A stretch of 33,219 nucleotides of DNA from an uncultured Synechococcus sp. (GTDB lineage: Bacteria > Cyanobacteriota > Cyanobacteriia > PCC-6307 > Cyanobiaceae). The notes beneath the pieces are model-generated. The model did no database searches. It was not told the DNA's origin and saw only the letters and a list, made by a program, of their open reading frames with translations. The position numbers and the translations under genes were made by a program. Location of the stretch: positions 1 through 33,219 of the forward strand of contig CAINZT010000001.1 in assembly GCA_903855705.1 (NCBI GenBank). The letters are read 5' to 3'. Of the stretch, positions 11,875 to 32,015 are shown one piece after another (position 1 is the first letter of the stretch; the number at the start of each line of letters is the position of its first letter).

Positions 11875-11940
11875 GGCCTGGGGCAATTCGGTCCAACCTA
11901 GGCAGATCCTGTGTGCTGCCCCTTGTTCTCGCCTGTGATT

Positions 11941-12111
11941 GGTCTGGGCCGATGATTTTACCTTCCCCCGAGAATTGTTTGCGCCGGTGATTGGTCTGCG
12001 CCAAGGTCAGGTCGGCGCCAATGACTGGTCTGCGTTGATGTTTGGTCTGCGTCGACGATCGGCCTGCGTCGATAACCGGTCTGCGGTGATGATCGATTTG
12101 CGTCGATGACC
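11941..12111 (+). repeat. 17-bp degenerate tandem repeat array
   Basis: Eight contiguous 17-bp units run from 11976 to 12111, starting at 11976, 11993, 12010, 12027, 12044, 12061, 12078 and 12095. One more unit lies at 11941-11957, separated by 18 bp. The consensus is close to GGTCTGCGCCGATGATT, and GGTCTGCG is the best-kept part. The period is not a multiple of three, so this is not a coding repeat in any single frame. The units have no spacers, so it is not CRISPR-like. Confidence 0.88.
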
Positions 12112-12139
12112 AGTGGCGCGAGACCAGTGGAGTGAGACC
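12112..12139 (+). repeat. 14-bp direct repeat x2 flanking the 17-bp array
   Basis: AGTGGCGCGAGACC (12112-12125) is followed at once by AGTGGAGTGAGACC (12126-12139), identical at 12 of 14 positions. A third, weaker copy follows at 12140-12154. The pair abuts the last 17-bp unit. Confidence 0.7.
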
Positions 12140-12262
12140 AGGGGAGCTATGACCGGGTCTGGCATTGGTGCTTGGACTGGGTCCTTGATTTGATCTTGGA
12201 TTGCCTGTGCAACTGGAACTGGATGGGGACCTGAGGGCGGGGCGGGGCCTTTGACTGGTGCC

Positions 12263-13378
12263 ATGCAAGGGTCTTTCTCGGGCGCTGGCTCCACCGCCGC
12301 CGAGCCCGCCCGCCATGGCGGCAACCTGGCCCAGGCGGCCGAGCGGCTCGGCTGCCGGCCCGGCCAGATCCTCGATGCCAGCGCCTCCGTGGTGCCCTTC
12401 GGCCCGCCTTTGGCCCTGCGGGCGGCCCTGCTGGCGGCGCCCCTGCGTTCCTACCCCGACAGGGACCACAGCCGCCTGCGCCATGGCTTGGCCCGCCACC
12501 ACGGCCTTGATCCCGACCAGCTCCTGCCTGGCAATGGCGCCGCTGAACTCTTCACCTGGGCGGCCCGGGACGCCGCCGCCGCCGGCTGCAGCCTGGTGCC
12601 CGCCCCCGGCTTCGCCGACTACCAGCGGGCCCTGGCCTGCTGGGGTGGCCTCTGGCACGACTGGCCCTTGCCGTTGCAGTGGACCGGCCCAGCCCCCCAG
12701 GCCTTTCCCGCCGGTTCAGAGGGCGCTGGGGCCGAGGTCCTCTGGATCACCAACCCCCACAACCCCACCGGCCAGCTCTGGAGCCGCGCCAGCCTCGAAC
12801 CCCTGCTGGAGCGCTTCGCCTTGGTGATCTGCGATGAGGCCTTCCTCTCCCTGGTGCCCGGTGGCGAGGCCCAGTCGTTGATTCCCCTGGTGGCCTGCCA
12901 CCCCAACCTGGTGGTGATCCGCAGCCTCACCAAGCTGTTTGCGATCGCCGGCCTGCGCCTCGGCTACGCCGTGGCCGATCCCAAGCGCCTGGCCCGTTGG
13001 GCCGCCTGGCGCGACCCCTGGCCCGTGAACAGCTTGGCCGGGGCCGTGGGCGAAATCGCCCTGGAGCAGGGGCGCTGGATCCGCCGGGTGCAGGCCTGGG
13101 TGGGTTCGGAGGGGCCCTGGCTGGGCCAACGCTTGGCCCAACTGCCGGAGCTGGTGCCCTTGCCCTCGGCGGCCAATTTCCTGCTGCTGCGCGGCGAGCG
13201 GGAGGGCCAGCCCTGGTCGCTGGAGCCCCTGCGCCTGGCCCTGGAGCAACGCCACCGGATCCTGCTCCGTGATTGCCGCTCCTTTGCCGGCCTCGATGCC
13301 AGCTGGCTGCGCATTGGTCTCCAGGACCGTCGCGGTAACCAGCGGCTGCTGCGGGCCCTGGGGCAGGAACTGGGCTAG
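12263..13378 (+). CDS. cobD: Threonine-phosphate decarboxylase-like PLP enzyme (CobD/CobC type)
   Basis: Fold-type I PLP enzyme of the HisC/CobD group (371 aa). The N-terminal RHGGNLAQAAERLG is the hallmark of threonine-phosphate decarboxylase, which makes (R)-1-amino-2-propanol phosphate for the cobalamin nucleotide loop. Other motifs: DASASVVPFGPP, RSYPDRDHSRLR, LLPGNGAAELF, the cofactor-binding NPHNPTG and VICDEAF, the Schiff-base lysine in RSLTKLFAIAGLRLGY, and a C-terminal WLRIGLQD arginine. A histidinol-phosphate aminotransferase is the main alternative, but the HGGN start argues against it. I placed the start at the ATG at 12263; an in-frame TTG lies at 12251. It converges on murG with a 45-bp gap. 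Confidence 0.85.
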   Translation: MQGSFSGAGSTAAEPARHGGNLAQAAERLGCRPGQILDASASVVPFGPPLALRAALLAAPLRSYPDRDHSRLRHGLARHHGLDPDQLLPGNGAAELFTWAARDAAAAGCSLVPAPGFADYQRALACWGGLWHDWPLPLQWTGPAPQAFPAGSEGAGAEVLWITNPHNPTGQLWSRASLEPLLERFALVICDEAFLSLVPGGEAQSLIPLVACHPNLVVIRSLTKLFAIAGLRLGYAVADPKRLARWAAWRDPWPVNSLAGAVGEIALEQGRWIRRVQAWVGSEGPWLGQRLAQLPELVPLPSAANFLLLRGEREGQPWSLEPLRLALEQRHRILLRDCRSFAGLDASWLRIGLQDRRGNQRLLRALGQELG

Positions 13379-19916: not shown

Positions 19917-21656
19917 TCAGGCCAGGGCCGGCAGCCGCGGGCAGGCCTCCACCAGGCTGCGGGTGATCGCGGCCTGGGGATGGGCCAGCAGCTGGTCACC
20001 AGGACCCTGCTCCACGATCCGGCCGCCCTCCAGCACGATCACCCGCTGGCAGAAGCCACTGGCCACGCCCAGGTCGTGGGTCACAAAGATCAGGCCCAAA
20101 CCGAGGCGGCTCTGGAGATCGCGCAGCAGCGCTAACACCTCCGCCTGCACTTCGGCATCCAACATGCTGACGCTCTCATCGCAGAGCAACACCTGGGGTT
20201 CCAGCACCAGGGCCCGGGCGATGGCGACCCGTTGTTGCTGGCCGCCCGAGAGCTGGCGGGGCAGGCGCCGCTCAAAGGCTTCGGGCGGATTCAGCCCCAC
20301 GGCCGCCAGCAGCTCCCGGGCGCGGGCGCGGGCCTGGGCCCGGCTGGCCAGGCCATGGATCAGCAGGGGGTCGGCGATCGCCTCGCCCACGGCCATCAAG
20401 GGGTTGAGGCAGGCCAGGGGGTCCTGGAACACCATCTGGATACGCCGGCGGGCCCGCCGTAGGGGCCTGCCGCGCAGGCTGAGCAGGTTGACCCCCTGCA
20501 GGCGCACGGCGCCGCCCCGCACCGGTGCCAGGCCGATCAGGGCGCGGCAGAGGGTGCTCTTGCCGCAGCCAGAGGCGCCCACCAGGCCGATCGTTTCGCC
20601 GTCATGGAGCTGCAGGCTGACGCCATCAACGGCCTTGAGCCAGCGCTGCTGCCAGGGCAGGGAGGCCAGGGGATGCCAGCAGCGCAGCTGGTCGATGTCC
20701 AGCAACAACGGCGCCTGGCGGGGGGCCGGGGTGGCCTGACCTTCCCGGGCCCGGGCCGCCGCCACCAGGCGCTGGGCCAGGGCGGACCGGGGCGCCGTGA
20801 GCAGCTCCAAGGCGGGGGCTTCCTCCACCAGCCGGCCCTGGTCGAGCACGGCGATGCGGTCGCACCAGCGGCCGGCCAGGGCCAGGTCGTGGCTGATGAG
20901 CAGCAGGGCGCTGCCGCTGTCCTGGCAGAGGGCCGTCAGTTCGGCCATCACCTGGCCGGCCACCGCCACATCCAGGCTGGTGGTGGGTTCATCGGCAATC
21001 ACCAGGGGCGGTTGCAACGCCAGGGCCAGGGCGATCGCCAGCCGCTGGCGCATGCCACCACTGAACTCGTGGGGATAGCTGGCGTAGCGATCGGCGCCAA
21101 TGCCGACCCGGGCCAGCAGGGCCTCGGCCCGCTGCCGGATCGCCCGGCCCTGGCCCAGGGGCCCTCGACTGAAAAGCCCCGCTCTGGTGAAACTTCGGCG
21201 GTCGGCGCTGGCGGCTGGGCCCTGGTGGGCCGAGAGGGTGTCGGCCAGGTGCTCCCCAATCGTCATCAGCGGGTTGAGCCGGGTCATCGGGTCCTGGAAC
21301 ACCAGGCCCACCGCCCCACCGCGCAGGCGTCGCAGATCCCGTTGACCCAGCCGCCGCGGATCCTGGCCGGCCAGCTCCAGGCCGCCCTCGCAGCGGCTGC
21401 CGGGGGGAAGCAATTGCAAAACGGCCCGGGCTACCGTGCTCTTGCCACAGCCCGAGGGCCCCACCAGGGCCAGGCGCTCACCGGGCTGGAGCACCAGATC
21501 GAGGCCGTTGAGGGTGGCAATGGCACTGCCGGGGTAGTGAACCAGCAGCTGCTGCAGGCTCAGGATCGGCAGGTCCGGCCCGTTAGTCGTTGCCGCAGCG
21601 GCGGACGGCAATCCGCTGGCAGGCGATCCGCTGGCAGGCGTTTCGCTGGCAGCCAT
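19917..21656 (-). CDS. Duplicated-domain ABC transporter ATPase (oligopeptide/nickel type)
   Basis: A single 579-aa chain with two complete ATPase domains, like DppD and DppF fused. Domain 1: Walker A GPSGCGKST (66-74), signature FSGGMRQRLA (about 199-208), Walker B LVIADEPT. Domain 2: Walker A GASGCGKST (361-369), signature LSGGQQQRVA, Walker B LLCDES. Q-loops read FQDPMTRLNPL and FQDPLACLNPL, typical of the peptide/opine/nickel family. No permease or binding-protein genes are in this window. The ATG (21656) is preceded by no clear ribosome-binding site, and the first 25 residues are a repeat-derived low-complexity stretch. The gene diverges from relA/spoT. Confidence 0.92.
   Translation of the reverse strand: MAASETPASGSPASGLPSAAAATTNGPDLPILSLQQLLVHYPGSAIATLNGLDLVLQPGERLALVGPSGCGKSTVARAVLQLLPPGSRCEGGLELAGQDPRRLGQRDLRRLRGGAVGLVFQDPMTRLNPLMTIGEHLADTLSAHQGPAASADRRSFTRAGLFSRGPLGQGRAIRQRAEALLARVGIGADRYASYPHEFSGGMRQRLAIALALALQPPLVIADEPTTSLDVAVAGQVMAELTALCQDSGSALLLISHDLALAGRWCDRIAVLDQGRLVEEAPALELLTAPRSALAQRLVAAARAREGQATPAPRQAPLLLDIDQLRCWHPLASLPWQQRWLKAVDGVSLQLHDGETIGLVGASGCGKSTLCRALIGLAPVRGGAVRLQGVNLLSLRGRPLRRARRRIQMVFQDPLACLNPLMAVGEAIADPLLIHGLASRAQARARARELLAAVGLNPPEAFERRLPRQLSGGQQQRVAIARALVLEPQVLLCDESVSMLDAEVQAEVLALLRDLQSRLGLGLIFVTHDLGVASGFCQRVIVLEGGRIVEQGPGDQLLAHPQAAITRSLVEACPRLPALA
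21611..21655 (-). repeat. 15-bp tandem repeat x3 at the 5' end of the ABC ATPase gene
   Basis: ATCCGCTGGCAGGCG occurs twice without change (21611-21625, 21626-21640), followed by a degenerate copy (21641-21655). Read on the minus strand it encodes the Ser/Pro/Ala-rich residues right after the start codon. Confidence 0.88.
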
Positions 21657-21759
21657 GGCGCGTATCCAGGGTCACGGCATCCAAGCTTGGATGGGCAGCC
21701 CCACACAGCGCCGCCAATGTGTCGCGAAATGCATACGATGGGAGTCTCCGCGGGCTTGG
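21657..21759. promoter_or_regulatory. Divergent promoter region, ABC ATPase and relA/spoT
   Basis: If relA/spoT starts at 21760, this 103-bp stretch carries both promoters. TACGAT at 21734-21739 could be a -10 element for relA/spoT; a matching -35 is not clear. An open frame reaches back through here to an ATG at 21655, which would overlap the ABC start codon on the other strand. Confidence 0.3.
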
Positions 21760-24303
<2,544 letters not shown>

Positions 24304-24362
24304 GGCTGACATCAGCCAACCCAGCTCTGGCTTTTCGGCTTTATCGGTGGTGGTTCGGACGC

Positions 24363-24390
24363 TTGATGGCTAGATTGCAACAGCCATCAA
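24363..24390. other. Inverted repeat (9-bp stem)
   Basis: TTGATGGCT (24363-24371) and AGCCATCAA (24382-24390) pair perfectly across a 10-nt loop. No T-run follows on either strand. It may be a transcript-end hairpin for relA/spoT or a protein-binding site. Confidence 0.55.
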
Positions 24391-24442
24391 AGGGATCGGC
24401 GGGCGTCGCGCTGGATTAATCAAGCGGTGCTGGTTGGTTGTT

Positions 24443-24480
24443 TTGGGGACAGTCTCTTGGCCTGGGCGAATGGTCCCCAA
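24443..24480. other. Inverted repeat (8-bp arms, 22-bp spacing)
   Basis: TTGGGGAC (24443-24450) and GTCCCCAA (24473-24480) are perfect complements. TTTTT lies about 13 bases after the second arm on the plus strand, too far for a classic terminator. Confidence 0.4.
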
Positions 24481-24507
24481 CCGTGGGGTTCGTTTTTGCT
24501 TGCACGG

Positions 24508-24559
24508 AAGTCTGATCGCTAAGTCTGACCGCTAACTCTGATCGTTAAGTCTGATCGCT
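24508..24559 (+). repeat. 13-bp tandem repeat x4
   Basis: Four contiguous units at 24508, 24521, 24534 and 24547. Units 1 and 4 are identical (AAGTCTGATCGCT), unit 2 has one change and unit 3 has two. It is intergenic, about 120 bp ahead of a broken secreted-protein gene. Confidence 0.9.
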
Positions 24560-24675
24560 GCCCATGGGCCGCTTGAGTGGTCTGATTCCCTGCTACCAGC
24601 CAAGGAAATACGTCTTTGTTGCGCAAGCTTTGGGGTTTTGCTTGCACTTATTTGCCCTGCCGTGCTGATCCTTCC

Positions 24676-25253
24676 ATGAACAACCTTCTGTCGCACCTCT
24701 TGCCTGGGGTGCTTGTTTTGGCCGCCTATGGAGCGGCAGCCCCAGGGGCCCAGGCGGACACTCTGGTGATGCCCATACCGCCTGGCTTGCAATTGGTGAC
24801 TAAGTCGCAAGGCCGAGAGATCAAGCTCTTTGAATGGGTTGGCCCTGGTGAGACGACATCCAGCTGGCGAGAAATGCTGACGGCGCAGATCCTCATGGGA
24901 CTGGGGAAGGCAACGCCAGCTCAATGGGAGGCTGGTATGTCGAGGCGTTGGCTTTAGTTTTGCCCAACGTCTAGACATGTATCGATTGCAAGGGGTCACG
25001 AGTATGGCCATGCTTTTTCTGTCTTTTTTCTGTCTTTTTTCTGTCTTGTTTGAAAAATCCCAGCACTGGCTTGCCAGAATTCACTTGGGTTAAGGCCATC
25101 CAAGGGGGGCAGGACTTCTTCGTGGTTCAAAGGGCCTTTAAGGCCATGCCTTCGAACCCGAAAATCGTTGCGCTCTCAACCCATCTCAAGTCCGCCCTGG
25201 TCTGCAGCGGAGAAAGTTGCGGTCGGCAGGGGGGACGGACCGTTTGGCAATAA
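24676..25253 (+). pseudogene. Secreted protein pseudogene (stop codon plus 11-bp frameshift)
   Basis: The ATG at 24676 opens a frame with a good signal peptide (hydrophobic LLSHLLPGVLVLAAYGAAA, cleavage likely after GAQA). It ends at TAG 24955-24957 after MSRRWL. The same frame then stays open (FCPTSRHVSIARGHEYGHAF) to an 11-bp tandem repeat, beyond which the gene-like sequence KNPSTGLPEFTWVKAIQGG continues in another frame to 25253. Removing one 11-bp unit restores a single 188-codon frame apart from the TAG, so the gene carries one nonsense mutation and one repeat-expansion frameshift. I do not recognise the intact family. The C-terminal part has two Cys (LVCSGESCG). Confidence 0.75.
25014..25045 (+). 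repeat. 11-bp tandem duplication that breaks the frame
   Basis: TTTTTTCTGTC occurs twice in a row without change (25024-25034, 25035-25045), preceded by a 10-bp copy (25014-25023). Deleting one unit joins HAFSVFFLS to CLKNPSTGLPEF in frame. Confidence 0.85.
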
Positions 25254-25320
25254 AAGCAACCGCCACAGGTGCAAAATCCTGGCAGGGTTCAGTTAAAGTG
25301 CTAAAATCTAGCTCTGCGCT

Positions 25321-26214
25321 TTGATAGAAGTGTCCCCAGAGCTGCTTGTTCTTGCCGGACCTTGCCTTGTCGTGGCCCTGGCCTATGGCTATGCCAGGTT
25401 TGTGGAGCCCCGATGGCTTAAAACAACAACCATCACCTTGGCGCTGTTGCCGCCAACGGCAGGGGCTGACCGGATCACAATCCTACATCTGTCAGACCTG
25501 CACCATTCCGATGCGGTCTCCTTGCGCTATTTAAGGCGCTCGCTGCAAAGGGCCATCAACGAGCAGCCAGATTTAATCTTGCTGACTGGTGACTACATCA
25601 CAACCAAGATCGACGATGCAGGCTTCTTAGAGATCTTGAAGCTGCTATCCCAGACAGCCCCCACCTTCGCCTGCCCCGGCAACCATGACGGCGGCCCATG
25701 GGCCCAGGCCATGGCCGGTTACCCCACAACCGGGCCGATTCAACGCTTGCTCGCAGCCGCGGGTATCCAGTATTTAGAGAATGCCTGGGCCCTGGTCGAC
25801 ATCAATGATGTGGCCATTGCGATTGGCGGTATGGGCGATTTGTGGGCTCGTAATTGTGAGCCGGAAGCGATTCAGGAGCCATTCAATACTGCCAACGCTG
25901 ATCTTAAGCTCTTGCTCTCCCATAATCCCGATTCCAAGGCCAAACTCAAGGCCCTGAATTGGAATTTAATGCTCTCTGGCCATACCCATGGTGGCCAATT
26001 CAGGCTGCCGCTCCTGGGGGCGCCGTTTGCGCCAATCAAAGATAAGTCCTGCCTTGCCGGTCTATGTCCCTATGGTGATCGATGGATCTATGTGACAGCT
26101 GGCCTTGGTAATGTGCATGGCTTGCGCTTTAATTGCCGTCCGGAGATTTCTGTTGTCAAATTGGTAAGGCATGTCGAGGGCGAAACCACTGGCACGCAGA
26201 CGTCCGCCCCCTAA
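25321..26214 (+). CDS. Membrane-anchored metallophosphoesterase (YkuE/YaeI-like)
   Basis: Calcineurin-like phosphoesterase with a hydrophobic N-terminus (about 7-25) that should anchor it in the membrane. All five metal-binding blocks are present, numbered from the TTG at 25321: D59 and H61 (SDLHHSD), G90-D91 (TGDYI), G120-N-H-D (GNHDGG), H201 (LLSHNPD), and H221/H223 (GHTHGGQFRLP). The block spacing and the GHTHGGQ-LP-LG form fit the YkuE/YaeI group, whose known members act on lipid phosphates or glycerophosphodiesters; the substrate here cannot be told. A GTG at 25330 is an alternative start. The gene stands alone, 9 bp before hepT. Confidence 0.88.
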   Translation: MIEVSPELLVLAGPCLVVALAYGYARFVEPRWLKTTTITLALLPPTAGADRITILHLSDLHHSDAVSLRYLRRSLQRAINEQPDLILLTGDYITTKIDDAGFLEILKLLSQTAPTFACPGNHDGGPWAQAMAGYPTTGPIQRLLAAAGIQYLENAWALVDINDVAIAIGGMGDLWARNCEPEAIQEPFNTANADLKLLLSHNPDSKAKLKALNWNLMLSGHTHGGQFRLPLLGAPFAPIKDKSCLAGLCPYGDRWIYVTAGLGNVHGLRFNCRPEISVVKLVRHVEGETTGTQTSAP

Positions 26215-26223
26215 CCTGGAGCC

Positions 26224-26643
26224 ATGACAGGTCATGACGTTCGCTGGCGCCAGCGCTCAAGCAATTTCCGCCGAGCCCTGGCGCGGTTGGTTGAAGCTGT
26301 TGATCTCTCAGGCCAACGCACCCTCAGTGATTTGGAGCGCCAGGGATTGATCCAGGCCTTTGAGTTCACCCATGAGCTCAGCTGGAAAACTCTCAAGGAT
26401 TTTCTGGCCTCCCGGGGCGTGGAGGAGCTGTATGGCTCCCGGGATACCACCCGGGAAGCCTTCGCCCAGGGGCTGATCAGCGATGGCGAGGCCTGGATGG
26501 AGATGATCCGCCACCGCAACCTCAGCACCCACACCTACGACGAAGCCACCGTGCAGGAGATTGTCACAGCGGTGGTGAGTCGCTATCTCCATGCCTTCCA
26601 GGGGCTGGAGACGCTGTTGCAGGACTGGGAGCGCCGGCCGTGA
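26224..26643 (+). CDS. hepT: HepT-like HEPN protein (nucleotidyltransferase substrate-binding family)
   Basis: A 139-aa all-helical HEPN protein of the HI0074 type. The HEPN RNase motif with the extra tyrosine, Rx4HxY, is intact: R98, H103 and Y105 in RNLSTHTY. Other family features: LIQAFEFTHELSWKTLKDFL and the Arg/Glu-rich DTTREAF. In studied pairs HepT is an RNase toxin and the partner MntA blocks it by adding AMP groups to the tyrosine. The stop overlaps the mntA GTG (GTGA at 26640), the usual tight pairing. Confidence 0.88.
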   Translation: MTGHDVRWRQRSSNFRRALARLVEAVDLSGQRTLSDLERQGLIQAFEFTHELSWKTLKDFLASRGVEELYGSRDTTREAFAQGLISDGEAWMEMIRHRNLSTHTYDEATVQEIVTAVVSRYLHAFQGLETLLQDWERRP

Positions 26644-26996
26644 GCGTTCAGGCAACTCCTCAGGCAACCCCAGCCAGCCATGGTCTGCCTGCCGCCGCCG
26701 TGGCGAAAATCAAAGACACGCTGGCCACCTTCCCGGCCATCGAGACGGCAACCCTCTACGGATCTAGGGCCCTGGGCCGCCACCGGCCCGGGTCTGATAT
26801 TGATCTCACCCTTGCCGGGGCCGGCCTGGATGGCGGTACCCTGGCCCGCCTGGATGCCGCCCTCGATGATCTCCTCTTGCCCTGGCGCTTTGATCTCTCG
26901 TTGCAGTCTTGCCTGCAATCTCCCGAGCTGATCGAGCACATTCAGCGGGTGGGACAGCTGTTCTACTGCCGTAGCGATCGGTCCCAACGTCCTTAA
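26640..26996 (+). CDS. mntA: MntA-like minimal nucleotidyltransferase (antitoxin)
   Basis: A 118-aa minimal nucleotidyltransferase. The active-site pattern GSx10DxD is intact: G41-S42, D53 and D55 in [22 protein letters not shown] third acidic residue for the catalytic set is likely in the C-terminal [10 protein letters not shown] (Asp after Arg-Phe). The start is GTG, overlapping the hepT stop. Expected role: AMPylation of HepT. An alternative role as an orphan nucleotidyltransferase is less likely given the adjoining HEPN gene. Confidence 0.88.
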
Positions 26997-27286
26997 ATGC
27001 TCCGTTCGTAACGCTATCGAGCGGTTCGCTTGCGAACTCAACCAAGCGCAACTTCACCGCTACGGCTACCAAGACTCACCTGTGGCAACGGCTCAACGAC
27101 CCAAGTTCACGGCAATGTGAATCCACTTGTATTGAGGTGCTTGAGATCCAGCATCACAACCCCCAGCCAAGCCAGCAACGCCAAGCTTCCGATAGCCCCG
27201 ATGACAACCAGCAGGGTGACCAAGGCAGACCGTGGAGAGCCGTTGATGTTCGCCACGCGTTCAATGGTGAGGAGCTCGATCTTGCC
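26997..27286. other. Spacer between mntA and the selO-like remnant
   Basis: 290 bp with no confident plus-strand gene. It contains a short palindrome (GTTCGC-TT-GCGAAC, 27024-27037) and, on the minus strand, a small open frame for one transmembrane helix (27107-27256, listed separately). Confidence 0.4.
27107..27256 (-). CDS. Possible small single-helix membrane protein
   Basis: A 49-codon frame from GTG 27256 encodes a short polar N-terminus, a long hydrophobic segment ([20 protein letters not shown]) and a short tail ([10 protein letters not shown]). The plus-strand frames here look like noise, while this one reads like a real transmembrane helix. It has no recognisable ribosome-binding site, and I do not know the family. 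It may be a remnant rather than a working gene. Confidence 0.3.
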
Positions 27287-28121
27287 ATGACCTGGGCCTA
27301 CGGCCGCTTCGAGGCGCGCCAGGCCCTGCTGGCCCTGCACCGGTTGGGGGTCAGCACCAGCCGCACCCGCAGCCTGGTGGAAACTGGCGAAGCCCTTTGG
27401 CGCGGCGATGAACCCTCGCCCACGCGCAGCTCGGTGATGGTGCGCCTGGCCCGCACCCCCGGCGCTGTGGCAGCTGCGAACGGCTGCTGCACTGGCGCGA
27501 GCCCCAGCAGCTTGAGCGTCTGTGGCGCCATGCCCAGGCCAGCTACATACCCCCATCTGGGGGATGGCACTGGCACTGGAGATAGCCCTAGCGAGGGGGT
27601 GCCCTCGCTTTCTATGGGGAACAGGGTTGACCGGGTGGCCGCGCCAGGAGTTGGAGCAGCGTCAGGAGCGCTTCGGTGCCGCCTACGACGCCCATTACCA
27701 CTCCCACCTGATGCGCCGGCTCGGCGCTAGCCAGGATTTAGGCCTTCTCGATTCAGGATTTCCAGATGGGCTGGCCAGCACCGAGCTGCCGGACCTGCTT
27801 CCACCCACCTGCCAGTTGCTCGCGGCCTGGCCGGTGGCCTAAGGCGCCTTGGAGCGGCCCATCGCCAAAGGCGGCCTGCCGGCGGAAGCGGAAGTCCTGG
27901 CTCCTTTTGTGGAGGGGGCGCCGGAGCCTGCACGGGCCGCTTGGCTGGCCTGGAGCCGGACCTGGCCCCAGCCCAAAACCGTCGCTCCCACCCTGGCCCG
28001 CTGGAAGCTGCAGGTCACCCCGGTGCGGGCTGGGATCGAACGGATCTGGGAGGCGATTGAGCAGCGCGATGACTGGAACCTGCTGGAGACTTGGCTGGGG
28101 CAGATTCGGGGCCGAGCCTGA
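27287..28121 (+). pseudogene. Degraded gene resembling selO/ydiU (protein AMPylator)
   Basis: Pieces of one gene in changing frames. The first piece (27287 to about 27460) reads [34 protein letters not shown] and SSVMVRLA, which resembles the SelO stretch LGIPTTR...TGE...V..RVA. Near 27460 the frame shifts; the continuation [20 protein letters not shown] resembles the following R-x-G-x-F-E block and ends at TAG 27583. A later piece (from about 27640: [19 protein letters not shown]) resembles a SelO C-terminal part, is stopped by TAA 27840-27842, and continues in the same frame to 28121. The N-terminus and the central catalytic region are missing. Pseudogene status is clear; the family name is from memory of motifs and needs a search. 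Confidence 0.55.
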
Positions 28122-28302
28122 TTCCTCGGGCCATTCGATGGCGTCTGTTGTACGGCGATGGTGCTAGCCGTTGGATGACGGGATCGGGGATTTCCCCTCA
28201 ACCTGGCTTAGTTGAACTGGTCTGATCGGAGTTGGGCGTGCAGCCGCCCCATAGCAGGGTTGAGAACGATTTATATTGGATGCATTGATCGGTTGCCTGC
28301 GA

Positions 28303-29286
28303 ATGCCCCTGCTCCAGCCTAGTTTGTCGCTACTTGTTTACGGCTCAAGCGGCTTTGTTGTCGCTGAGATTTATCTCACACTCAACAAGCTGTGGTCGCG
28401 TAAGCATGAGCCGCAAGTGATTGAAAGTATCTCGCCGATGTCCAAGCTGGTTGGCTTGATCCCCGTGACCGTGTTTGCCATCGATGGTGTGCTGAGGCAT
28501 CTATGGGTGGTGGCGATTGTCAATGGCCTCTGGATTATGGCAAGGACAGTGCAATTGTTGATTGGCATTGGCCTGTGGGAGGCGGGCCGGCGCAGGATTT
28601 CCCTATGGGTGATGTTGCGGCGGGCCCTGAGCCAGGAACGATCTGAGTTGGGGGATCTTTTGAAGGCCTTGGTGCGGCCAACGGGCGCGCGTCAAATCAT
28701 CGACATTCTATGCCAGTTGGCTACCATTGATGGTGATCTTGATCAGGCTGAGCGTGAACTCATTCAAACCTTTGCTGACCATTGGCAGATTGCATTGGAT
28801 TGGCAGGCTATCGATGACCATCAGCTAGCCAATGCCTCGCTTCGATTGAGATCCTTGAGCCAGGTTGTGACCAGTTACTTAGAATTGAATCCACCGAAAG
28901 ACCAGGCCCGCCAGCTGGCTGATCTTGTGGTTTTGATTATCCGTGCCGATGGCAAGGTTACGGTTGAAGAAGAGATTACCATGGCCGAGACAACCAACCA
29001 GCTCAATGCCTATGTGCATGGCAGCAAGGCCACGTATCGCTATGTCAATATTGTGACCCGCTCCCATGAGCAGGCTGGGGCCCTCATGGGTTTGCTCGAT
29101 ACTGTGGTCGAGCGACAAGTGGCTGGAGGCACCACCTATCTGGTGGGCCCCTACTTTTCAGACCTGTACGCCGAACAGGTGGCCAAGCAATATCGGGCCC
29201 TAGGCTTTTTTGCGATTATGCTGGATCAAGAGGGCCTAGATCGGCTGGTTGGGGAAGAGCTTGGCGAGGCGTTACTTGTTGGTTAG
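28303..29286 (+). CDS. Membrane protein with TerB-like domain and SPOR-like C-terminus
   Basis: A 327-aa protein (from ATG 28303) with hydrophobic segments at about 6-26, 48-62 and 66-92, a basic linker, then a cytoplasmic helical domain. Two acidic motifs, TIDGDLDQAERE (about 141-152) and IRADGKVTVEEE (about 213-224), match the DG...E pattern of TerB-type domains, which bind metal and occur in stress and membrane-linked systems. The end (about 277-307, YLVGPYFSDLYAEQVAKQYR then ALGFFAIM) looks like a SPOR-type fold, but the predicted topology would put it in the cytoplasm, so that reading is tentative. An in-frame TTG at 28276 is an alternative start; TATATT at 28273-28278 could be a -10 element and favours the ATG. 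Confidence 0.65.
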   Translation: MPLLQPSLSLLVYGSSGFVVAEIYLTLNKLWSRKHEPQVIESISPMSKLVGLIPVTVFAIDGVLRHLWVVAIVNGLWIMARTVQLLIGIGLWEAGRRRISLWVMLRRALSQERSELGDLLKALVRPTGARQIIDILCQLATIDGDLDQAERELIQTFADHWQIALDWQAIDDHQLANASLRLRSLSQVVTSYLELNPPKDQARQLADLVVLIIRADGKVTVEEEITMAETTNQLNAYVHGSKATYRYVNIVTRSHEQAGALMGLLDTVVERQVAGGTTYLVGPYFSDLYAEQVAKQYRALGFFAIMLDQEGLDRLVGEELGEALLVG

Positions 29287-30061: not shown

Positions 30062-31633
30062 TTAGAACCTATACCTCAACCCACCCTGATAGCCAATCTG
30101 ATCGCCATTGTTGAAGGCTTGATAATTCACGCCTGCATACAGCACGGCCTTGGGATTGAGTTGCAGATCGGCGCCTAGGTTGAGATAGAGGGTGTTGGCT
30201 CCCCGGATCTGCCCTTGTACGGTGTAGGAGGTGGTGGCTTCATCTTGCAAGGCAGCTGTGATTGAGCGATTGCCATCCTGATCGGCCAGGAAATCAACTT
30301 GATAGGCAACGCCGATGTGGGGCGATAGCACGGTGGTCTTTTGTTTGTTCAAGGGGATGGGTGCTTCTAAGGAGACTCCAACAGTGCCTAGCAGGGAATT
30401 GGTGGTTTGCCCTTGCACATTGACCAGGGTGCCAGCACCTGATTCAGAGAAGCCATCTTGCTGGTGGGAGCCATAGGCGATACCCAGCATCGGCTTGATG
30501 TGAACAGGGCTGAGGCGATTCTTTTCGCCGTTGTAATTGGTGGTTAAGGGAATGTCATAGGACGCTTGTAGGGCACCGGTAAAGCCACTGGCGTTGTAGG
30601 CAGAGGTGGCGGTATCGCCTAGGTACGATCGAGAGCCGGTGTAGTTGAAGCTGCTGGTACCAAACAAAGCAACAATTTTCCAGCGTTGCTGCCTGTCAGG
30701 GCGATAGACGCCGTAGATCGACCCTGAATTGATCGTGGAGTTAATTGCTGCGGTGGTGTCCTGAAAATTGAAGTTGCTCAGGTTTGTGCTGCCGTAGCCA
30801 TAGGCAGCGCCAATGACCCATTGTCTGGAGAGTTTCCATTCCAACCCATAGGCACTTGAGGCGTTAGCGCTGTTGTATCCGCCTAATGTCGTAGTACCGT
30901 TGATCGTGCCGTTAGCGTTACTGCCTTCCACGAAGACACAAAGGGATTGCTGCTTGTTGGTTCTAGAGTTGGACTGGGTCTTCCCACTGTCATGGACGAT
31001 CCAACCCCGCTGGTTGCATTCGCCTGCTTGGTTTAAGATAATTTCCCTTTGATTCTTTAGGGCATCGAGGCCCACTGATTGGTTTGTGGCATAGGGCTGC
31101 AAGGCGTTAGCCGAAAACGCAATGGTGAGAAATGACCAGGGGAATGTGAAATTAACGAGGCAAGATCCTTCCGGACAATCAAAAGCAAACGGAGGAGGAC
31201 CTTCATTGTAAACAGCAAACCCGACTTGATTGTTGAAGCCGGAAAGGGCTCCTTTGCTGTAGGCGATCCAGGCCGAGTAGGGGGTCCCGGGCGGGCCTGG
31301 TACGCCACTGTTCCAACTGTTGGCGTTCAAGGCGTAGCCCAGGGCGGCTAGATTAGTGGCTAATTCTAGGGACAGGGATTGATTCCCCCACCAGGGTTGA
31401 GATTGCAGCGGGAAGAGGGCGGAGGGGCTGGAAAGATTCAACTGTTGATAGGTCACTGCATAATTCTTGCCATTCGCCGATATGGTTGTAACTGGATTTG
31501 CCGATGCCGACCCGGCTAGCAATAATCCGGTCAACAGGCTGAAGCCGCCCAGTACTTTGCGACCAGTGCCGTGGGTAATCTTCTGGTTACCGGCTTTGGC
31601 CCTTAGGCAAGGCAAGGCAAGACACGACAGCAT
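30062..31633 (-). CDS. Autotransporter-type outer-membrane beta-barrel protein
   Basis: A 523-aa protein (from ATG 31633; a GTG at 31660 adds nine residues). The signal region is KVLGGFSLLTGLLLAGSASA. Residues to about 240 form a short N-terminal domain with WWGNQSLSLELATNLAALGY and four to five cysteines. From about 245 on the pattern is amphipathic strands typical of an autotransporter barrel (YGLEWKLSRQWVIGAAYGYG, GSIYGVYRPDRQQRWKIVAL, IKPMLGIAYG), ending in GLRYRF with the C-terminal aromatic residue used in outer-membrane insertion. The passenger is too short for a large secreted effector; a surface or porin-like role is equally possible. The stretch between start codon and signal core contains three 5-bp repeats. 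Confidence 0.8.
   Translation of the reverse strand: MLSCLALPCLRAKAGNQKITHGTGRKVLGGFSLLTGLLLAGSASANPVTTISANGKNYAVTYQQLNLSSPSALFPLQSQPWWGNQSLSLELATNLAALGYALNANSWNSGVPGPPGTPYSAWIAYSKGALSGFNNQVGFAVYNEGPPPFAFDCPEGSCLVNFTFPWSFLTIAFSANALQPYATNQSVGLDALKNQREIILNQAGECNQRGWIVHDSGKTQSNSRTNKQQSLCVFVEGSNANGTINGTTTLGGYNSANASSAYGLEWKLSRQWVIGAAYGYGSTNLSNFNFQDTTAAINSTINSGSIYGVYRPDRQQRWKIVALFGTSSFNYTGSRSYLGDTATSAYNASGFTGALQASYDIPLTTNYNGEKNRLSPVHIKPMLGIAYGSHQQDGFSESGAGTLVNVQGQTTNSLLGTVGVSLEAPIPLNKQKTTVLSPHIGVAYQVDFLADQDGNRSITAALQDEATTSYTVQGQIRGANTLYLNLGADLQLNPKAVLYAGVNYQAFNNGDQIGYQGGLRYRF
31605..31619 (-). repeat. 5-bp tandem repeat x3 in the leader of the outer-membrane protein
   Basis: AGGCA three times on the plus strand (TGCCT on the coding strand), lying 14-28 bases inside the gene and before the signal-peptide core. 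The period is not a multiple of three, so gain or loss of one unit would switch the reading frame. Confidence 0.75.
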
Positions 31634-32015
31634 CTCTGCATTGGTTGACCAACAACCCACATTGGCAATGGCAGCCTGGCCGTAGCTCTTGATCAGAAGT
31701 TATGGCGTATCTTTGCTGTGGAGCTGCTGGGTTTTCGTCCCATTCGGGCATTGAAGGTGGGGGCAAGAGCCCTAACCATCCAAATGGCCTCTCCATGGAT
31801 AAAGCCACCAGCTCCTTCTGCGCTGGCCTGAGCTGTCTACCCATCGGCTGGCATGTTGTCTCTGCTAACAGCACCCGCATTCCGGCCGCAAGGATCGCCC
31901 CCTCCCTGACGCCCATTCGGGTCAGGGACCAGGCACAGGGCCTGCTTGCCGTACCGATCGCTACAACCCGCCAGCAGGGGCGTTCCTACAACTCGCCCAC
32001 TTCGCTGCTTGGCCG
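31634..32015. other. Divergent spacer upstream of the outer-membrane protein gene
   Basis: 382 bp. Open frames on both strands here have no signal, domain or start context, so I leave them out. A hairpin lies at 31904-31927 (CCCTGAC with GTCAGGG, extendable past a one-base bulge). The promoter of the outer-membrane protein must lie at the low end, but no clear boxes are visible. Confidence 0.4.

Follow-up and report, generated by a model that had tools for sequence, protein, structure and literature searches.

Positions 24676-25253 (+ strand) of the 33,219-nucleotide stretch analysed here, referred to below as the window, most probably (with a probability of about 0.92) hold a recently inactivated gene for a small secreted protein, turned into a pseudogene by the gain of one 11-bp unit in a tandem repeat and by a separate TAG stop codon. 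The window corresponds to contig 1 of a draft assembly (2,627,092 bases in 229 contigs, 93% complete), and the assignment relies mainly on an intact, collinear homologue of 188 aa in a sister genome, which provides the reference for a clean, recent-looking gene loss in a Synechococcus-like cyanobacterium. We regard the locus as an ordinary pseudogene of recent origin, derived from an accessory gene that was probably dispensable. Its study also brings out a rare and patchy secreted-protein family without a match to any family model, and neither this family nor the example of gene loss alters current understanding.

The proposed course of events is as follows. In its ancestral state, the gene would have specified an exported protein of 188 aa belonging to a rare family of cyanobacteria, and it would already have contained two 11-bp direct-repeat units, coding in two different frames, as they still do in the sister. 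In the lineage of the window, one unit would have been gained, most likely by slipped-strand mispairing during replication, with a shift of the reading frame as the outcome and, separately, codon 94 would have become TAG through three adjacent base changes. Either lesion by itself would truncate the protein.

Organization of the pseudogene and its lesions

On one side of the pseudogene is a RelA/SpoT gene (21655-24303) and on the other a metallophosphoesterase gene (25321-26214), named from Pfam matches in each case. The pseudogene and its parts described in this section are on the + strand. Its 578 bases leave a remainder of 2 on division by 3. Frame 1 opens with the ATG at 24676 and begins with a signal-peptide-like N-terminus (MNNLLSHLLPGVLVLAAYGAAAPGAQAD; 24676-24759), as read from the translation, and hydrophobic leaders are also present in the sister and in two distant relatives; on inspection by eye, signal-peptide cleavage is predicted after AQA. 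The same frame contains a single in-frame TAG (24955-24957) and then, soon after the repeat (25014-25051), a TGA that appears because the frame is shifted there. The continuation beyond the array, KNPSTGLPEFTWVKAIQGG..., sits in another frame: this C-terminal half (25047-25250) translates without internal stop in a frame that differs from that of the N-terminal half, and it ends with a TAA at 25251-25253. DNA and protein searches of the window's own genome, in its 93% complete assembly, matched only the place at 24676-25253 and revealed no intact second copy.

An intact copy in the sister genome

The closest relative among the genomes compared is ‘MAG: Synechococcus sp. UW140 isolate MsE-30apr19-67’ (G018, the sister), and most of the window is collinear with its contig 7. 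The sister homologue (L008:4779-5345, - strand) is one open frame of 188 aa whose ATG and TAA match those of the window in position, and the N-terminal and C-terminal halves of the window are 94 and 96% identical to it at the protein level. In a base-by-base alignment, the window has 11 additional bases inside the array and its TAG stands opposite a GGC codon (Gly94) of the sister; within the gene, no indel other than the 11-bp unit separates the two copies. Thus, an orthologue that spans both lesion sites within collinear flanks is intact in the sister. The sequence-only reading, which had joined the two halves into one gene and had proposed a search for intact homologues, is upheld on this point, since the search returned a 188-aa sister protein that bridges stop and repeat in one frame. 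The lesion set that it had put forward, a repeat-borne frameshift and a single TAG, likewise agrees with the sister, which has one unit fewer and a sense codon in place of TAG. Homologues ending at the TAG would have spoken against it; neither the sister protein nor a distant relative from genome G120 (see below) ends there, and a fragment from genome G139 is cut by a contig end beyond the TAG.

Separate searches of the two halves against 201 family genomes yielded four matching genomes at E up to 0.001 for the N-terminal half (93 aa; the window's own genome, G018, G126 and G139) and two for the C-terminal half (68 aa; the own genome and G018). A scan of genome contigs gave the G018 sister as the sole relative among the matches listed. 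Given that a single close homologue was found, the direction of change is judged from the sister together with two distant relatives.

The 11-bp repeat array

Exact 11-bp units start at 25014, 25025 and 25036 and are followed by an imperfect part, the whole array (25014-25051) being scored by Tandem Repeats Finder as 3.5 copies with 96% match. The longest exact lag-11 run of the window, 23 bases, is located at this array, compared with a maximum of 11 and a mean of 8.1 in 100 simulated sequences of the window's second-order Markov composition. Similarly, when the 22-base double unit was searched with up to three mismatches, the window gave two hits, which overlap, are exact and lie at the array; 100 shuffles gave none. 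The sequence-only reading had described two identical adjacent units: the identical tandem units are there, but their number is three. It had also stated that dropping one unit restores a length divisible by three, and the arithmetic holds (578 minus 11 = 567 = 189 codons).

The difference in copy number, three exact units in the window versus two in the sister, makes slippage on an existing repeat the natural cause of the indel, and the two units carried by the sister within its open frame indicate that the repeat predates the lesion. The indel amounts to one 11-bp unit, which is not a multiple of three. The simplest way to gain such a unit is replication slippage, and we infer that it operated here.

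Phase-variable contingency loci with repeats inside the coding sequence are known. A phase-variation switch, in which gain and loss of the 11-bp unit toggle the gene off and on, is nevertheless very unlikely for the locus. In its favour, a tandem array inside a coding frame exceeds that of the sister by one unit, and the repeat is already part of the sister's intact copy, yet the TAG precedes the repeat, so that translation stops at any copy number and no number of units opens this allele; loss of one unit would alter the frame only and the TAG stop would stay. Moreover, the two alleles known come from two species, and a 13-bp tandem array upstream of the pseudogene (24508-24559, + strand, four copies, 39 bp of which are absent from the sister alignment) also differs in length between the genomes, which means that repeat turnover in this region need not be functional. 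A bolder version, in which the 11-bp array is a hypermutable switch, populations repeatedly turn the exported protein off by gain of a unit and the window holds an off allele later sealed by a stop, is little better placed and may be called decidedly unlikely. Compared with phase-variable contingency loci, the window shares a coding-sequence tandem repeat whose copy number sets the frame, but it differs by the additional nonsense codon, the small number of units, one known allele per species and no evidence of switching. Recent bacterial pseudogenes generated by slipped-strand duplication of short direct repeats are also a known kind, and the locus shares with them an indel of one unit, not a multiple of three, in an existing tandem array, an intact orthologue in a close relative and few further lesions. 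Nothing differs in kind, except that the present gene carries a second lesion too, the three-base change to TAG.

Production of the full protein in spite of the lesions, by stop readthrough combined with programmed frameshifting, is extremely improbable: six-T runs within the repeat count in its favour, but two different recoding events would be needed, and recoding is not an inherited design because in the sister a single stop-free frame covers the gene.

As a separate observation on the 13-bp array, a pattern of about one and a half of its units occurs once in the own genome, at this place.

The TAG codon

Relative to GGC in the sister, the TAG represents three adjacent substitutions directly after an identical run of 146 bp (24809-24954). 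The length of this run is unremarkable, since another run of 151 bp exists elsewhere between the two genomes. A template for the change was sought with exact 8- and 9-base strings around the TAG, and no second copy was encountered on either strand of the window.

Both lesions are probably real rather than assembly errors. Assembly or consensus errors at one or both sites, or a minority strain variant with most cells carrying an intact gene, constitute an unlikely alternative. It draws on the draft status of the genome (229 contigs, 93% completeness), shared by the sister genome, which is a draft too, and on the fact that the copy number of tandem repeats can be misjudged. Conversely, the entire array covers 38 bp, which ordinary short reads would generally span; exactly three adjacent substitutions creating a stop codon after 146 identical bp are an unlikely error; and for one gene to have suffered two independent errors is even less likely.

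Past selection and age of the lesions

With the TAG codon left out, 24 substitutions separate the window and sister copies, distributed as 3/5/16 over codon positions 1/2/3. The dN/dS ratio is 0.236 over the gene (0.321 before the repeat and 0.137 after it); the corresponding values are 0.225 in the metallophosphoesterase gene next to it and 0.169 in the gene at 26640. Both the distribution over codon positions and the two partial ratios reveal past coding constraint in the frames on either side of the lesions. This substitution pattern and the overall ratio suggest that purifying selection acted for much of the separation of the two lineages and that the lesions look recent, in line with the ‘recent-looking’ character noted in the sequence-only reading (dN/dS 0.24, 16 of the 24 substitutions at third positions). 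The ratios rest on these 24 substitutions and on two sequences only, in which the window's own branch is not separable, and the signal may stem wholly from the shared past and from the branch of the sister.

These values also bear on the idea that cells produce a truncated protein of 93 aa (signal peptide plus about 65 residues) with a function of its own. In favour of this, the N-terminal part has no lesion and most of the residues common to both distant relatives fall within it, a count biased by the contig end that cuts the G139 fragment. On the other hand, neither the sister nor the G120 protein ends at the TAG, and the sequence beyond the repeat shows conservation with the sister (dN/dS 0.137, 96% protein identity), so that a functional short product has very little probability.

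A survey of indels in the 26 other genes of the window, of which 24 matched the sister and two had no match, also speaks for the pseudogene. The longest aligned pieces of those 24 genes, one piece per gene and thus covering several genes in part, contain five indels. Four have lengths of 3, 12 or 15 bases; the fifth is a single-base indel, for which the sister copy is broken and the window copy is not.

A 159-aa ORF on the minus strand (24532-25011) was considered as an antisense gene and rejected, its nonsynonymous/synonymous ratio being 3.3 and that of the plus frame 0.25. Of the two other minus frames, one has a ratio of 0.29 but is interrupted by 3 to 4 stops and reflects the third-position changes, and the other has a ratio of 1.4 with 7 to 8 stops.

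Distribution of the family

Beyond the sister, relatives are few and distant. G139, which belongs to another genus of the family, contains a related N-terminal fragment at a contig end. Used as query, this fragment matched three of 250 genomes, namely G139 itself, G120 (of the same genus as G139) and G018 (E 9e-4). The G120 protein has 230 aa and aligns with residues 51-155 of the sister protein at 27% identity (BLASTP E 2e-05 in a single comparison). Both codon 94 and the repeat fall within this alignment, which is therefore a second source in favour of the two halves forming one protein.

In samples of larger groups, with overlapping order and phylum draws, the whole sister protein matched two of 399 genomes of the order (the own genome and G018) and, at E up to 0.01, four of 386 genomes of the phylum (the own genome and three matches judged to be chance), and a three-row profile matched one of 292 genomes of the phylum, the own genome. 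G018 evidently lies outside the 386-genome draw and is also not among the matches of the 292-genome draw. The matches treated as chance are those in G126 (E 1e-4, or 0.005 with the whole sister protein), G460 (0.006) and G483 (0.007); they fall in stretches that have other long open frames or internal stops, and no common motif is visible.

Within the genus (six genomes), the gene is found in the window's genome and in G018, and is missing at the locus in two of the four others. In G096, the end of the RelA/SpoT gene and the start of the metallophosphoesterase gene are ~44 bp apart and the gene is absent; in G118, ~54 bp separate the end of the RelA/SpoT gene from sequence matching the window from 26968 onward, the gene and its downstream neighbours being absent. 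In G068 the contig breaks off shortly beyond the RelA/SpoT gene, and in G137 nothing matched the locus; both were counted as neither present nor absent. A search with window 24330-25300 gave no match anywhere in G096, G118, G068 and G137; it had no positive control of its own, and the same type of search with window 22800-27300 found G018. The secreted-protein family is therefore rare and patchily distributed. Patchy presence among members of the genus marks the gene as accessory, and the G096 and G118 loci without it fit a dispensable gene.

Family, structure and possible mobile origin

No family was recovered with the sister protein in Pfam and NCBIfam at E up to 5, nor in PHROGs at 0.1. The G120 relative has no Pfam or NCBIfam family and, in PHROGs, a single family of unknown function (E 0.064). 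Pfam and NCBIfam matches of the C-terminal half (E 0.036 and 0.073) do not reach the curated cut-offs and are no longer obtained when the whole sister protein is the query, and PDB sequence matches, at E 0.054 or worse, are not credible. AlphaFold2, run on the sister protein alone without relatives, gave a mean pLDDT of 39.9, unusable for fold comparison. Altogether, the protein was probably exported and dispensable.

Regarding a mobile origin, searches of plasmids and phages returned no match to the sister protein or to the G139 fragment, and a search of plasmids none to the G120 protein; in viral contigs, 31 pattern matches included no relative. Among the literature matches listed, as seen in titles and openings of abstracts, no publication on the gene was found.

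Other differences between the window and the sister

Several further places of the window deserve mention. The spacer at 11925-12294, between two genes, is rich in repeats with units of about 17 and 34 bp; matches to the sister stop on either side of it, the gap in the sister being only about 36 bp, and no second copy of the spacer was found in the own genome. Two 15-bp length differences relative to the sister, one in each direction, occur at 21607-21652, within a 15-bp tandem array, and at 21856, near the junction of the RelA/SpoT gene with a gene that we take to be ABC-transporter-like. The TerB-domain gene (28276-29286) and the autotransporter-beta-domain gene (30062-31660) have no DNA match in the 36 kb of sister contig compared. 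Lastly, 26224-26996 contain a gene pair with Pfam matches to NTase_sub_bind and nucleotidyltransferase, presumably HepT/MntA-like. The pair is intact in the window; in its sister counterpart (L044), the first gene is one base short within the stretch that encodes RNLSTH in the window, which we assume to be the HEPN RX4-6H motif, and its frame is broken.
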